Of a stretch of 50,576 nucleotides of DNA, positions 2,110 to 25,956 are shown one piece after another. A model generated the notes under the pieces. It worked only from the letters and a program-made list of their open reading frames with translations, searched no databases and was not told the DNA's origin. Both the position numbers and the translations under genes were made by a program. The stretch comes from an uncultured Clostridia bacterium (lineage in GTDB: Bacteria > Bacillota > Clostridia > Oscillospirales > Oscillospiraceae), in NCBI GenBank assembly GCA_946186225.1, contig CAMHMK010000003.1, positions 1-50,576 of the forward strand, in the 5' to 3' direction. The stretch's first letter is position 1, and the number at the start of each line of letters is the position of its first letter.

Positions 2110-3246
2110 TTATTTCTCTTTCAGAAGCTTTCGCGCCTGCTCATGCACAACGGCTTCGATCAGCTCCAAGCGCTGCTCGGGCAGGTTGTACAATCTGTGG
2201 CGTCTGAATCGGAAATCCAACAGCTTCCGCAGATTGTTCCTGTGTTCATGGGTGAGCAAAGGCTTCGCCTCTTCTATGAAATCGTCGTATACACAGGGCA
2301 GCTGCCCGGCGGCGTATTTCTTGATCCCTTTTTCGCTTGTCAGCGCCTCACCGGAAGCGAAATTCAGCAGTGAATTTCCATGGTCAAACAGCGGCGCCGG
2401 GGCGATGATCTGATTCGTTCTGCTGTCTACGAGAAAGCCGAAATTGCCATAGTGACGGTCTGTATTCAGAATCACAGCGTCGAAGACGATCATGTCGTTC
2501 AGCGCTTTTGTGAATGCCTCACCAAGCTGCTGATAATACGCCCGCACCGCTTTCATGCCGCCGCTGCGGACAATCCTTCCAACGGGAACGTAGGACTGCT
2601 CTTTGCTTGTGAAAAGGACACAAGTCGAGCACAGGGTGTTCTTCCACTTGGAGAGGCCATACGGAATCGCGTCAATCTCAAGGACCTGTGCAATCTGCGC
2701 GGCATAGAATTCCGAATAAGGCTCGTTCCCGGCATTGGAAGCGCCTTCGGTACCGCCCTTAAAGAGCCGGACGACGCCGTTTTCCCGCCGCCAGCATTTC
2801 CGGAGCATGCCGTTTGTGGTCAGCTCCGGGCTGGAGGTCAGCCTGGAGTGGCTGCTGCCGTAGCCGGTGAACGCAATTTCGCCCAGCGTGCGATTAAACC
2901 GATTGTCATACAGATTATACTTCTCAAAGGAGGCGTCAAAGCCTTCCTCGGTAACCCAGTAGCAATCGTTCAGCGACAAACCCTTGGAGACGCGGAGAAT
3001 ATCAAACGGGCGATTCATACTCAGCCCCATCGCATTAAGAATCGTATCAGCGTAAGCACGGTTTCTTGGAATCAAGCGGTGCCGCACCCATCTCTCGATT
3101 CCCTTTCCGGAAGCTTCTTCCAGATCAAGCGGGAATAGCTTCCGATTCGATTCATCTACCCAGAGAATCTTCACGTTCGGCTCTGCTCCGGAATCAGCAG
3201 AAAACCGGATAAGAGGCGTATCAAAATGTTTGAGGGTATAGAGCAT
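2110..3246 (-). CDS. HipA-like Ser/Thr kinase domain protein
   Basis: NTDRHYGNFGFLVD (catalytic loop) and LFDHGNSLL (metal-binding D) motifs typical of the HipA C-terminal fold; ATG at 3246 chosen. Confidence 0.8.
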   Translation of the reverse strand: MLYTLKHFDTPLIRFSADSGAEPNVKILWVDESNRKLFPLDLEEASGKGIERWVRHRLIPRNRAYADTILNAMGLSMNRPFDILRVSKGLSLNDCYWVTEEGFDASFEKYNLYDNRFNRTLGEIAFTGYGSSHSRLTSSPELTTNGMLRKCWRRENGVVRLFKGGTEGASNAGNEPYSEFYAAQIAQVLEIDAIPYGLSKWKNTLCSTCVLFTSKEQSYVPVGRIVRSGGMKAVRAYYQQLGEAFTKALNDMIVFDAVILNTDRHYGNFGFLVDSRTNQIIAPAPLFDHGNSLLNFASGEALTSEKGIKKYAAGQLPCVYDDFIEEAKPLLTHEHRNNLRKLLDFRFRRHRLYNLPEQRLELIEAVVHEQARKLLKEK

Positions 3247-21976: not shown

Positions 21977-22438
21977 TCACCGAAGCTGCGCTTCCATCAG
22001 CCGGGACAGATCCTCGAACCGGCTCCTTGCAGCGCGCTCCATCCGGGAAAAGGTATCGGCCCATTCGGAGAATTCACGTTCCAGGGCGGCAAACGACTTG
22101 GCCGCCTGCTGCTGGCGCAGGCAGGCCTGACGCAGCGCCTCCGGAAGGTCCCGCGGCAGCGGCTCGATCTTCGGCATGAGGCGCAGGCGCCGCCCGGTCA
22201 GCAGATAATGAAGGGCCGTCAGTTCCCGAGCGCCGGCGTCATTCTGCGCTGCCATGCGGGAGAGTCTGCCTCCGTCCCGGCCGCCGAATCTACGGGAGAG
22301 TTGCCGCAGCTCCGCCGCATTCTGCTTCTGGTCGAGGATCGCCTGCTCCAGCCGTTCCGGCAGAAGTGCCTGCTCCGCGTTGAGCAGACCGGGACCCCGG
22401 ACCCGGTTCCAGATCTCCAGCTCTGTTTCACGGTTCAT
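21977..22438 (-). CDS. hypothetical helical protein
   Basis: [32 protein letters not shown]...; helix-rich ORF upstream of secA. Confidence 0.6.
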
Positions 22439-22541
22439 ACAACGCACCACCTTTCATGGCAGTCTATGCAGAACCCGCTCCGGCTGTGATTCGTCAGAAA
22501 ACCGGCGCGCCCGGAGGGGTGCGCCGGTGCAGAGCTGCGCG

Positions 22542-23801
22542 CTAGGCTTGGTTCACGGAAATTCTTGCGTAATAGTACACGCCGCTGCGGTAGATCGTCA
22601 ATACGACGTGACCGGTCGGAACGGCTTCGGCCAGGGCTTTCTCATACTCGTCTATGGTCGAAACCGCGGTGCCGTTGACCTCGGTAATCACGTCGTTGAC
22701 CGCGAGATATCCGTAGGCCGGAGAGCCTGGGCTGATCTGGGTGATCCACAGCCTGCCGGGGAAGCGGTAGTAGCTGATCATGCCGGAGGAGATCTCCTCC
22801 ACGCGAAGACCGATCCCGTCGTAGGCGTCGGCATGCAGGGTCAGGGCGTCCACCTCGCGCTGGAGATCTGCCGAGCTGAGGGCGAAGCAGGGGTCTGTTT
22901 TACCGCTGAGCAGCCACTGCGAGATCGGCGTTGTCAGGCCGGTGAGCCTGCCCTTTTCGTCAAAGACGGGAATGCCTCCGCCCTCACTCTGGCGGGGCGA
23001 GGAGGTCAAAAGGAGACGGTAGCTCTCCCCTTCCAGTTCGCTGGTCTGGACGGCGGAGATCATGCCCTCGCTCAGGACGTTTGGCATGGTGCTGCCATAG
23101 GGATTGCTGATCAGATAGACCCGCTGGCCGACGCTGACGTCGTCAGTGGAGAAGGTTACCGGAGTCAGCCCGCTGGCCTCCGCCTTGAGCAGCGTCAATC
23201 CGGTGACCCGGTCGCTGTCCACACGGCGGGCGAGGCAGGTGCTGCCGTCGGAGAAGACGGCGGAGAATTCCGAGATGCCGCCGAGTTCAGAGACCGCCGT
23301 GAGCAGATAGCCGTCCTCAGAGAGGACAATTCCGGTCAGGCTGTAGGTTCCGTAATAGGTGGAGACCTCCAGACAGACCACGGAGCGGGAGATGTTCCGA
23401 TAGAGCTCGGTCGCAGTATCTGCCGAGGCAGCGGCGTCTCCCTGTGCCAGATGCAGGCGGATGGGATTCTCCGGGGATTGGGCCGTCTGGGCCGCCGAAT
23501 CCACGCCGTTGGAAACCGGCAGATCGCGGACGGTATCTGTGCCGGAGATGTGCTTTTGCTCCTGCAGATGGAGACTCCAGCCCCCCTCATTGTGCTCCAA
23601 GCGAATGTTCAGGACCGTGGCCGCAACAGCGACCGAGCAGATGGCGATCACCGCCAGCCCGAACAGGACCCACAGCCAGACGTAGCTGCGCTTGGGTCTC
23701 GGGCGCACGGCGGTCCCGTAGCTGTCCTCCGGTGCGGAGCGAGTCTCCGCCTCAGGCATCTCGAGGACCTCCGCCTCCATCGGCGTTCTTTTGTCATTCA
23801 A
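22542..23801 (-). CDS. HtrA/DegP-like S1C protease-fold protein with PDZ domain and apparently lost catalytic triad
   Basis: N-terminal cytoplasmic tail plus one TM (YVWLWVLFGLAVIAICSVAVAATVL), trypsin-like fold (TGIVLSEDGYLLTAV..., SNPYG), C-terminal PDZ (ITQISPGSPAYGYLAVNDVITEVNGTAV). Confidence 0.85.
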   Translation of the reverse strand: MNDKRTPMEAEVLEMPEAETRSAPEDSYGTAVRPRPKRSYVWLWVLFGLAVIAICSVAVAATVLNIRLEHNEGGWSLHLQEQKHISGTDTVRDLPVSNGVDSAAQTAQSPENPIRLHLAQGDAAASADTATELYRNISRSVVCLEVSTYYGTYSLTGIVLSEDGYLLTAVSELGGISEFSAVFSDGSTCLARRVDSDRVTGLTLLKAEASGLTPVTFSTDDVSVGQRVYLISNPYGSTMPNVLSEGMISAVQTSELEGESYRLLLTSSPRQSEGGGIPVFDEKGRLTGLTTPISQWLLSGKTDPCFALSSADLQREVDALTLHADAYDGIGLRVEEISSGMISYYRFPGRLWITQISPGSPAYGYLAVNDVITEVNGTAVSTIDEYEKALAEAVPTGHVVLTIYRSGVYYYARISVNQA

Positions 23802-25263
23802 TTGGATTCACCACACTTTGTCTGTGTCTTTCGTCAGGGTTGGCCGTTTTCGGCATCGTGAATGAGAATTCCGTCACGCCGTCGCGGCTCGTCACATAGA
23901 TATCCTCCTCGTGGCCGAGGATGATGGTTTTTACGATATAAAGTCCCAGTCCCCAGCCGTCGCGGTCCACGGAGCGGCTCTTGTCCGTCTTGTGGAAGCG
24001 GTCAAAGACCAGGGGAAGCTCCTCGGCCGGGATCGTCGGCCCGGTATTGGAGACGGAGACCAGGTATTTTCCGCCCTTCGCCTCCTTGACGCACAGCCCC
24101 AGCGTACCGCCCGTGGGGCAGAACTTAACCGCGTTGTCGATCAGGTTATAGACCACCTGCGTGATGGCGTCCGGGTCGGCCAGGGAGAGCGCGCCGGCGT
24201 CGGGCAAGTTGGTTTCGACGTTGAGACCCTTGCCGTTGATCTTCTGCTCGAAGCTCAGCAGGACCTCGCCCACGACCTGACAGAGGTCAAAGGTCCGCTT
24301 GCGCGAAGCCGGAATGCCCTTATCCTGGATGCGAGAGATCTCGAGCATGCTTCGCACCAGGCGGGACAGGCGCTTGACCTCGCCGGAGATGAGCTCCATA
24401 TATTTTCGGTGCTGCTCCGTCGGGATCGTCCCGTCGAGCATGCCGTCCATATAGCCGGAGATCGTGGTCATCGGTGTTTTGAGTTCGTGGCTGACATTCG
24501 CCACAAATTCCTCGCGCTTGCGCTCGGACTGGGCCAGGGCACGGGACATGTTGTTAAAGGCAACGGCCAGCTCGTTGAGCTCCTCGGTATCGGTCTCACT
24601 GGTCGGGATGCGGACGTCCATCTGCCCGTGCGCCATCCGGCGGGCGGCGGCTGTCATCAGCTTGATGGGCTTGGTCTGCCGCCGGACGAGCCACCAGACG
24701 ATCGGGATGGACAGGAGCATGACCATGAGCATTACGATCAGATTAAGCCGGAAGCTCCCGCTCATGCGGTTGAGAATTCGCGCGGTGGAGACCGAGGCGA
24801 TCACATAGCCGGGATTGCCGCCGCTGTCGGTCACGAGCTTCACGGCCGCCATGCGCGTATCGTCGTAGCATTCCAGGCGGACCTTCGCCGCAAAGCCGAT
24901 TTCGGAGGACTTGGCCAGGTCCAGGAAGGAGATTGGAAGCTGACTGCCCAGGTGCTCGCAGGTCTGCAGCCCGCAGGAGCAGGCGGTGACGACGCCGTTT
25001 TCATCGCAGACGATCGTATCCTTGCCGGTGGCGCGGGTCGTGTAGTTGAGCTGGATGCGAATCTGCTGACGATTCTGGACATTGGACGCAGGCAGAAAGC
25101 TCAAAACGCCGGACTCAGCCTCCACCACGTTTGCAAGCTCGCTCCGCGTCAGATCCAGGGACGCGCGGTAGTAGATGAACTGCGTGGCGGCGGAGAGTAT
25201 GAGGATGGTCAGGAAGATGAGACAAAGCGTCAGAACGATCTGGCTCGAAAAGCTCCGCTTCAC
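23794..25263 (-). CDS. membrane sensor histidine kinase (HAMP, HisKA, HATPase)
   Basis: VSHELKTPMTTISGYMDG H-box; NLIDNAVKFCP N-box; DGWGLGLYIVK G-box; two TM segments. Confidence 0.95.
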   Translation of the reverse strand: MKRSFSSQIVLTLCLIFLTILILSAATQFIYYRASLDLTRSELANVVEAESGVLSFLPASNVQNRQQIRIQLNYTTRATGKDTIVCDENGVVTACSCGLQTCEHLGSQLPISFLDLAKSSEIGFAAKVRLECYDDTRMAAVKLVTDSGGNPGYVIASVSTARILNRMSGSFRLNLIVMLMVMLLSIPIVWWLVRRQTKPIKLMTAAARRMAHGQMDVRIPTSETDTEELNELAVAFNNMSRALAQSERKREEFVANVSHELKTPMTTISGYMDGMLDGTIPTEQHRKYMELISGEVKRLSRLVRSMLEISRIQDKGIPASRKRTFDLCQVVGEVLLSFEQKINGKGLNVETNLPDAGALSLADPDAITQVVYNLIDNAVKFCPTGGTLGLCVKEAKGGKYLVSVSNTGPTIPAEELPLVFDRFHKTDKSRSVDRDGWGLGLYIVKTIILGHEEDIYVTSRDGVTEFSFTMPKTANPDERHRQSVVNPIE

Positions 25264-25266
25264 GGC

Positions 25267-25956
25267 CTATACCACCTCGAATTTATAGCCCACGCCCCAG
25301 ACGGTCTTGAGCGACCACTGGTCGGAAACGCCCTCCAGCTTCTCGCGGAGGCGCTTGATGTGGACGTCCACGGTGCGGGTATCGCCGAAGTAGTCGAAGC
25401 CCCAGACCTCGTCAAGCAGCTTGTTGCGCTGGTAGACCCGGTTCGGCGTGGAGGCCAGGTGGTAGAGCAGCTCCATTTCCTTCGGGGGGGTGGGGATCTT
25501 CTTGCCATCCACGGTCAGTTCAAAGGAATCCATGTCGATGATGAGCTTGTCGAAGACCAGTCGCTTATTCTCCTTTTCCGGCGCTGCGCCGCTGCGGCGC
25601 AGGACCGCCTCGATGCGGGCCAGAACCTCGCGCATCTCAAAGGGCTTCGTGATGTAGTCGTCCGCGCCCTGCTTGAGCCCGGTCACCTTGTCGTCGAGCT
25701 CTCCCTTGGCGGTGAGCATGATCACCGGGGTCTTGGACTCGGAGCGGATGGTCCGGCAGACAGCCCAGCCGTCCATCACGGGCAGCATCAGGTCCAGCAG
25801 GACCAGGTCAGGCCGGAATCGGCGGAACTGCTCCACGCCCTGCCCTCCGTCGGAGGCGATTTGCACCTCGTATTTCTCTTTTTCCAGATAGAGCCGAAGC
25901 AGATCGGCAATATTGGCGTCGTCTTCCACGATCAGAATTTTGGTTGCCACAGTCAT
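25267..25956 (-). CDS. OmpR/PhoB-family response regulator
   Basis: ILIVEDDANIADLLRLYLEKE; LVLLDLMLPVMDGWAVC; C-terminal winged helix (FDYFGDTRTVDVHIKRLREKL). Confidence 0.96.
   Translation of the reverse strand: MTVATKILIVEDDANIADLLRLYLEKEKYEVQIASDGGQGVEQFRRFRPDLVLLDLMLPVMDGWAVCRTIRSESKTPVIMLTAKGELDDKVTGLKQGADDYITKPFEMREVLARIEAVLRRSGAAPEKENKRLVFDKLIIDMDSFELTVDGKKIPTPPKEMELLYHLASTPNRVYQRNKLLDEVWGFDYFGDTRTVDVHIKRLREKLEGVSDQWSLKTVWGVGYKFEVV

Follow-up and report, generated by a model that had tools for sequence, protein, structure and literature searches.

The closest described relatives of the protein reported here belong to the HtrA/DegP family (MEROPS S1C, Do-type, including the membrane-anchored HtrA of Gram-positive bacteria), with which it shares a trypsin fold, one PDZ domain and an N-terminal anchor, and from which it differs in lacking all three catalytic residues, with no His left in the domain. 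HtrAs near two-component genes have been described as proteases, as in CssRS-HtrB, YycFGHI-HtrC and the CiaRH-controlled HtrA (reviewed in PMC12826053), and these systems resemble the present one in the side-by-side arrangement of two-component genes and an HtrA and in their envelope setting. Loss of catalysis has precedents as well, since MamO is an HtrA scaffold which no longer catalyses and has a surface di-histidine that binds transition metals (PMC4794232), while inactive HtrA forms in plant Deg7 and others are referred to in PMC3473262. The magnetosome pseudoproteases, MamO and others, have in common with our case that the losses were repeated and independent and that an active HtrA is found in the same cell (PMC4794232). 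Unlike MamO, however, the protein described here has no His in its domain and hence no surface di-histidine metal site, and its setting is a two-component operon. The subtilisin-like CspC of Clostridioides difficile is likewise a pseudoprotease with a signalling role in a clostridial organism, the analogy being one of principle only. CspC is soluble and acts as a signalling node in spore germination (PMC6636752). With regard to PDZ-bearing proteins that act on signalling, the S41 serine protease Prc binds and cleaves the sensor of the kinase VgrS (PMC6237974), and differs from the role proposed below in that it acts by cleavage and not by binding alone, while one regulatory effect of Bacillus anthracis HtrA requires its PDZ domain and not proteolysis (PMC6387919).

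The gene under study lies in a window (the whole stretch of DNA that was analysed, 50,576 nucleotides) from the 1.8 Mb assembly of an uncultured Clostridia bacterium, and its open reading frame, which a sequence-only reading had placed at 22542-23801, was recovered there on the minus strand. The operon and the parts of the protein were assigned as follows.

21977-22450, minus strand: 157-amino-acid protein (orf157) downstream of the pseudo-HtrA gene (same position in other members of the genus)
22542-23801, minus strand: pseudo-HtrA gene, 419 amino acids, TTG start (open reading frame and Pfam matches; orthologs in 20 other genomes of the genus)
22545-22835, minus strand: PDZ domain, residues 323-419 (PDZ_6, 37.7 bits; the confident portion of an AlphaFold model)
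22836-23420, minus strand: pseudoprotease domain, residues 128-322, a trypsin fold without His (Trypsin_2, 59.7 bits)
23616-23687, minus strand: predicted transmembrane anchor, residues 39-62 (hydropathy; helix 41-63 in a low-confidence model)
23688-23801, minus strand: predicted cytosolic N-terminal tail, residues 1-38, with the motif MxDKRTPMEAEVxELP...YGTA (highest identity of all regions)
23794-25263, minus strand: sensor histidine kinase with HAMP, HisKA and HATPase domains (Pfam), immediately upstream of the pseudo-HtrA gene in the genus
24952-25008, minus strand: motif C86...C95-x-C97-x4-C102-x-H104 in the extracytoplasmic sensor of the kinase, residues 86-104 (C95, C102 and H104 conserved across the family)
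25267-25956, minus strand: OmpR-type response regulator (Pfam), in the operon at every context locus examined

The protein thus laid out consists of a short tail, one hydrophobic helix, a weakly conserved linker, a trypsin-like domain and a PDZ domain. The trypsin-like domain was matched by Trypsin_2 with an E-value of 7e-16 (cut-off 27.6 bits), and PDZ_6, PDZ_2 and PDZ all exceeded their Pfam cut-offs in the C-terminus. The TTG start is supported by the N-terminus MxDKRTPMEAEV, which is also conserved in relatives starting with ATG, and the tail is probably on the cytosolic side, as judged from the basic residues preceding the membrane helix. The closest solved structures by sequence were proteins of the DegP, DegQ and DegS type, with an E-value of 2e-16 for the query and of 2e-50 when a profile of the genus set was compared to DegP-like chains, while the score against the curated HtrA/DegP family (TIGR02037) was 73.6 bits, below the cut-off of 416.2. 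AlphaFold modelling from three-sequence alignments gave a confident PDZ domain (pLDDT up to 91) and a protease half that was mostly at pLDDT values from below 50 to 60; a Foldseek search with this low-confidence model matched HtrA structures and was left out of the evidence.

A profile alignment made with intact relatives was used to read the triad columns of the window's protein, which were located as follows.

23289-23291, minus strand: catalytic His position, occupied by Ser171 (TCT), context DGYLLTAVSELG
23199-23201, minus strand: catalytic Asp position, occupied by Gly201 (GGA), context DRVTGLTLLK
22977-22979, minus strand: catalytic Ser position, occupied by Gly275 (GGA), context RQSEGGGIPVF

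The alignment bears out the earlier calls of no His, Gly for Asp and Gly for Ser, and the fold landmarks cited alongside them (SEDGYLLT, SNPYG and the PDZ domain) are correct. The sequence-only reading had also named an alternative alignment with His, Asp and Ser correctly placed as the outcome that would overturn it. Residues 128-320 contain no His, such that the general base which a trypsin-type enzyme needs cannot come from any realignment, and the Asp and Ser motifs align on VTGLTLLK and SEGGGIPV, which rules out an alignment with a restored triad. That the window's protein is a membrane-anchored HtrA-type pseudoprotease, with a trypsin fold and a PDZ domain, is thereby strongly supported at the level of sequence.

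The same state was found throughout the genus, of which 23 genomes were sampled. The kinase was present in 22 of these, one of them having it at a contig end, and was not found in the remaining genome, which is incomplete. A full-length ortholog follows the kinase in 20 genomes, our own included, with 35-67% identity to the query outside its own genome, and at a further locus (L037, genome G018) the ortholog is shortened further. The triad is absent in all 21 members in which the position is assembled, namely the 20 aligned and the further degraded L037. All 20 aligned members have Gly in place of the Asp; in place of the His they carry D, E, G, L, N or S, and in place of the Ser mostly Y, W or G, with Ser itself in only two species. 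The protease domain is also free of His in 12 of the 19 other aligned members. Pairwise omega values (NG86, five pairs) were 0.25-0.33 overall, 0.21-0.29 for the protease domain and 0.17-0.44 for the PDZ domain, and while the high dS (0.66-1.1) makes these values rough, they lie a long way from neutrality. Within the genus the N-terminal tail had the highest mean pairwise identity (0.59), followed by the pseudoprotease domain (0.48), the PDZ domain (0.42) and the linker (0.23). The earlier suggestion of a pseudoprotease can in consequence be extended, in that the pseudoprotease state appears, with strong support from these comparisons, to be genus-wide and kept by purifying selection; a pseudogene of a single species is ruled out by the genus-wide ortholog set and the omega values. 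An order-wide profile search gave 205 bits for the next match outside the genus as compared to 405 for the query, and among the sampled genomes the fully reshaped form looks confined to the genus.

Canonical HtrA paralogs of the same genus present a different picture, as all 22 domains examined (two from our own genome and 20 from other members) carry TNxH and G[NS]SGG. Owing to the intact motifs in every paralog examined, the loss of the triad can be taken to concern the kinase-linked copy alone, with HtrAs of intact motif remaining in the cells. As a separate observation, one locus of our own genome (L003, contig C20, approximately 2590-3126) encodes an intact trypsin-like domain, a hydrophobic helix and a C-terminal domain that by eye is FHA-like, and would appear to be a protease on the outside fused to a phosphopeptide-binding domain on the inside.

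The operon with a histidine kinase and a response regulator, proposed from the window, holds across the genus, and the gene thus has the conserved linkage to both that is looked for in an accessory protein. At most genus loci with a sufficiently long contig the gene order is RR-HK-pseudoHtrA-orf157-SecA-YfiH-SBP, and YmdB is divergent upstream of the operon at many loci. The product of orf157, a conserved protein that most members of the genus encode between pseudo-HtrA and SecA, matched no Pfam or NCBIfam family above cut-off. No SecA gene was seen at the usual place in the two deepest members examined. The 8-bp overlap of the kinase and pseudo-HtrA genes (23794-23801), on which the sequence-only reading had remarked, is real in the window but local to the species, spacing being variable elsewhere in the genus. 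A parallel that it had drawn with Walk-type operons, which carry HtrC in Bacilli, was not sustained beyond layout: with 203 bits for the kinase (WalK cut-off 725) and 228 bits for the regulator (YycF cut-off 340) both fall short, and membership of WalRK (YycFG) was rejected.

To place the genus within its family, the N-terminal part of the kinase served as query, with matches in 178 of 251 family genomes, from which approximately 100 loci were taken. Only kinase-linked copies, ranked by similarity to our own kinase, were sampled, and the frequency of loss is no estimate for HtrA at large; many of the genomes are fragmented assemblies, and the pattern is based on 21 genus genomes and some 90 family operons. 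The order RR-HK-HtrA is common across these loci. Among the 92 kinase-linked HtrA or PDZ genes that were classified the triad is intact in 58 and not intact in 34, and by genus (38 in all) 30 have intact forms only, six lost forms only and two are mixed. The lost forms are of several kinds: in genus g104 three members have Asp replaced by Gly with His and Ser retained and a fourth lacks all three residues, in genus g81 there is a single loss of His or Ser, and two loci (L039, L055) have Tyr at the His position and Tyr or Ala at the Ser position. Genus g84 contains forms with a mutated triad, one with the anchor, half a protease domain and the PDZ domain (L043), and two in which the whole protease domain is deleted and the anchor and PDZ domain are kept (L040, L041), while in genus g13 three intact forms are accompanied by one that consists of anchor and PDZ domain only (L056); these half-domain and deleted forms all lie directly behind the kinase. 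Parsimony on the kinase tree required no fewer than seven changes between intact and lost, and a tree forcing all lost rows together was rejected (log-likelihood 347 lower, p-AU 0.0002). The direction of change is far likelier to have been loss than gain, because in most genera the triad is intact, with the same motif as in HtrA proteins generally. In two proteins of genus g12 (L054, L062) the triad residues are in place with ASGSA as the Ser motif instead of GNSGGP, and their activity is doubtful judging from this motif. Related kinases without a downstream HtrA gene were also encountered (L044, L050, L051 and others), and either represent whole-gene loss or paralogous systems; at two of these loci (L050 and L051, genus g34) the gene after the kinase resembles a solute-binding lipoprotein.

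These sequences document the loss of the triad and its fixation in the genus, purifying selection on the gene, independent losses that recur elsewhere and linkage in the operon, and the most economical reading is that the operon HtrA has a kinase-side function without need for proteolysis, the retained part being the anchor and PDZ domain together with the tail where this is traceable. As anchor and PDZ domain outlast the protease domain in several lineages, a ligand-sensing or kinase-modulating role, as suggested in the sequence-only reading, is the best-supported inference, a co-receptor of the kinase giving the best fit. We consider it moderately probable that the pseudo-HtrA is a non-proteolytic, membrane-anchored HtrA derivative which assists the upstream histidine kinase as an accessory receptor or scaffold on the extracytoplasmic side. 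The ancestral RR-HK-HtrA operon would have encoded an active HtrA, probably devoted to envelope or secretion stress, and the proteolysis of this HtrA may have been made dispensable by other active HtrAs in the cell. Ligand binding would have been retained by the PDZ domain and, in our genus, by the reshaped protease domain, with coupling via the membrane helix and the conserved cytosolic tail; the ligands would most likely be exposed C-termini or unfolded exported polypeptides, while contact with the kinase, and the direction of any effect on it, we infer as parts of this scheme. In favour of a co-receptor we count that the tail is the best conserved region of the protein and that a YGTG-like tail motif occurs in neighbouring genera, persisting even in the g84 proteins without a protease domain, and the precedents of Prc/VgrS and B. 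anthracis HtrA lend it further support by analogy. Against a co-receptor it may be held that a position downstream of the kinase would be equally expected of that system's target gene, that the PDZ-only arrangement occurs in other genera and not in our own, and that constraint on the pseudoprotease domain is similar to that on the PDZ domain, such that the PDZ domain is not obviously the main working part in our genus. The existence of family kinases without an adjoining HtrA gene furthermore implies that the HtrA is not universally needed.

The main rival reading would make the protein an output of the system rather than a sensor: under control of the regulator and kinase, it would act on exported proteins as a holdase-type chaperone or scaffold, its PDZ domain and empty protease cleft holding clients near the Sec exit. 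Chaperone activity besides proteolysis is known for HtrA proteins (PMC12826053), secA lies two genes downstream at most genus loci and the protease domain is still under constraint, yet relatives with an anchor and PDZ domain only, or with half a domain, could hardly form an HtrA-type cage at the same operon position, and a highly conserved cytosolic tail is not called for. This output role is less compatible with the PDZ-only forms than the co-receptor role is, and we hold it to be unlikely. Alternatively, the protein might assemble into mixed trimers with an active HtrA paralog and, as a regulatory subunit, adjust the activity of that paralog, by analogy with the active and inactive pairs of magnetotactic bacteria. 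Active paralogs are indeed present alongside it in the genomes examined, a pairing of this kind is shown by MamE and MamO (PMC4794232), and plant Deg7 uses a degenerate domain for oligomerisation, as cited in PMC3473262; mixed trimers would, however, leave the kinase linkage unexplained, and the gene has stayed in place in lineages that have dropped the protease domain, through which trimers usually form. Such trimers are possible in our genus and unlikely in the lineages without a protease domain, and as an explanation of the whole we judge them distinctly improbable.

A further reading, suggested by analogy with MamO, is that the protease domain was turned into a thiol- or metal-binding module, by which redox state or metals would be sensed jointly with the Cys/His motif of the kinase. 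That motif, whose C95, C102 and H104 are conserved also where the kinase-linked HtrA is intact, may itself be a metal or redox site. Members of the genus have a median of 6 Cys per pseudoprotease domain, as compared to 2 in the intact kinase-linked HtrAs of the family and 0 in the genus's own canonical paralogs (p 1e-8 against the latter), and recurrent Cys columns (203, 230, 232 and 277) lie next to what were the Asp, oxyanion-side and Ser motifs. Cysteines of the kinase sensor are also raised in the genus (mean 5.7 versus 3.1), where Cys 69 and 132 are common in addition to the C86/C95/C97/C102/H104 motif, and within the genus the Cys counts of the two proteins are correlated (rho 0.48, p 0.04, with no correction for common ancestry). 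Such a module is nevertheless disfavoured in that no correlation was seen outside the genus and that Cys may merely be tolerated as a small buried residue in anaerobes. The window's pseudo-HtrA and its nearest relative, moreover, have none of the four recurrent Cys, which makes the gain of cysteines a lead for the genus and not a property of the window. We regard the thiol or metal module as very unlikely, and a broader scheme, in which the kinase-linked HtrA was repeatedly converted across the family to a PDZ co-receptor and, in the genus, the Cys-refilled domain and the kinase Cys/His motif form a thiol- or metal-based envelope sensor, as unlikely. That the gene is a functionless pseudogene in the making, as might be argued from the lost triad and the further shortening at L037, is scarcely credible and for the genus as a whole already refuted by the selection signal, given that the reading frame is open in all members, that overall omega is low in the pairs compared and that residues remain invariant across the full range of ortholog identities.

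In the literature searched we found no report of a two-component operon in which an HtrA pseudoprotease has become fixed, or of repeated reduction of HtrA to an anchor-PDZ protein within one family. HtrA pseudoproteases as such are known from MamO and plant Deg7, and what appears to be new is the two-component setting and the repeated loss. Many Gram-positive bacteria have HtrA proteases near two-component systems, and these might signal either by cutting or by binding. The repeated natural loss described here, of the activity and sometimes of the entire protease domain, with a membrane-anchored PDZ domain staying beside the kinase, provides a minimal set of parts for the question of a non-proteolytic co-receptor. 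Annotation as HtrA in these gut Clostridia is no proof of protease activity, and in this genus of gut and rumen Clostridia the pattern suggests that a protein-cutting enzyme has been turned into a sensing partner.
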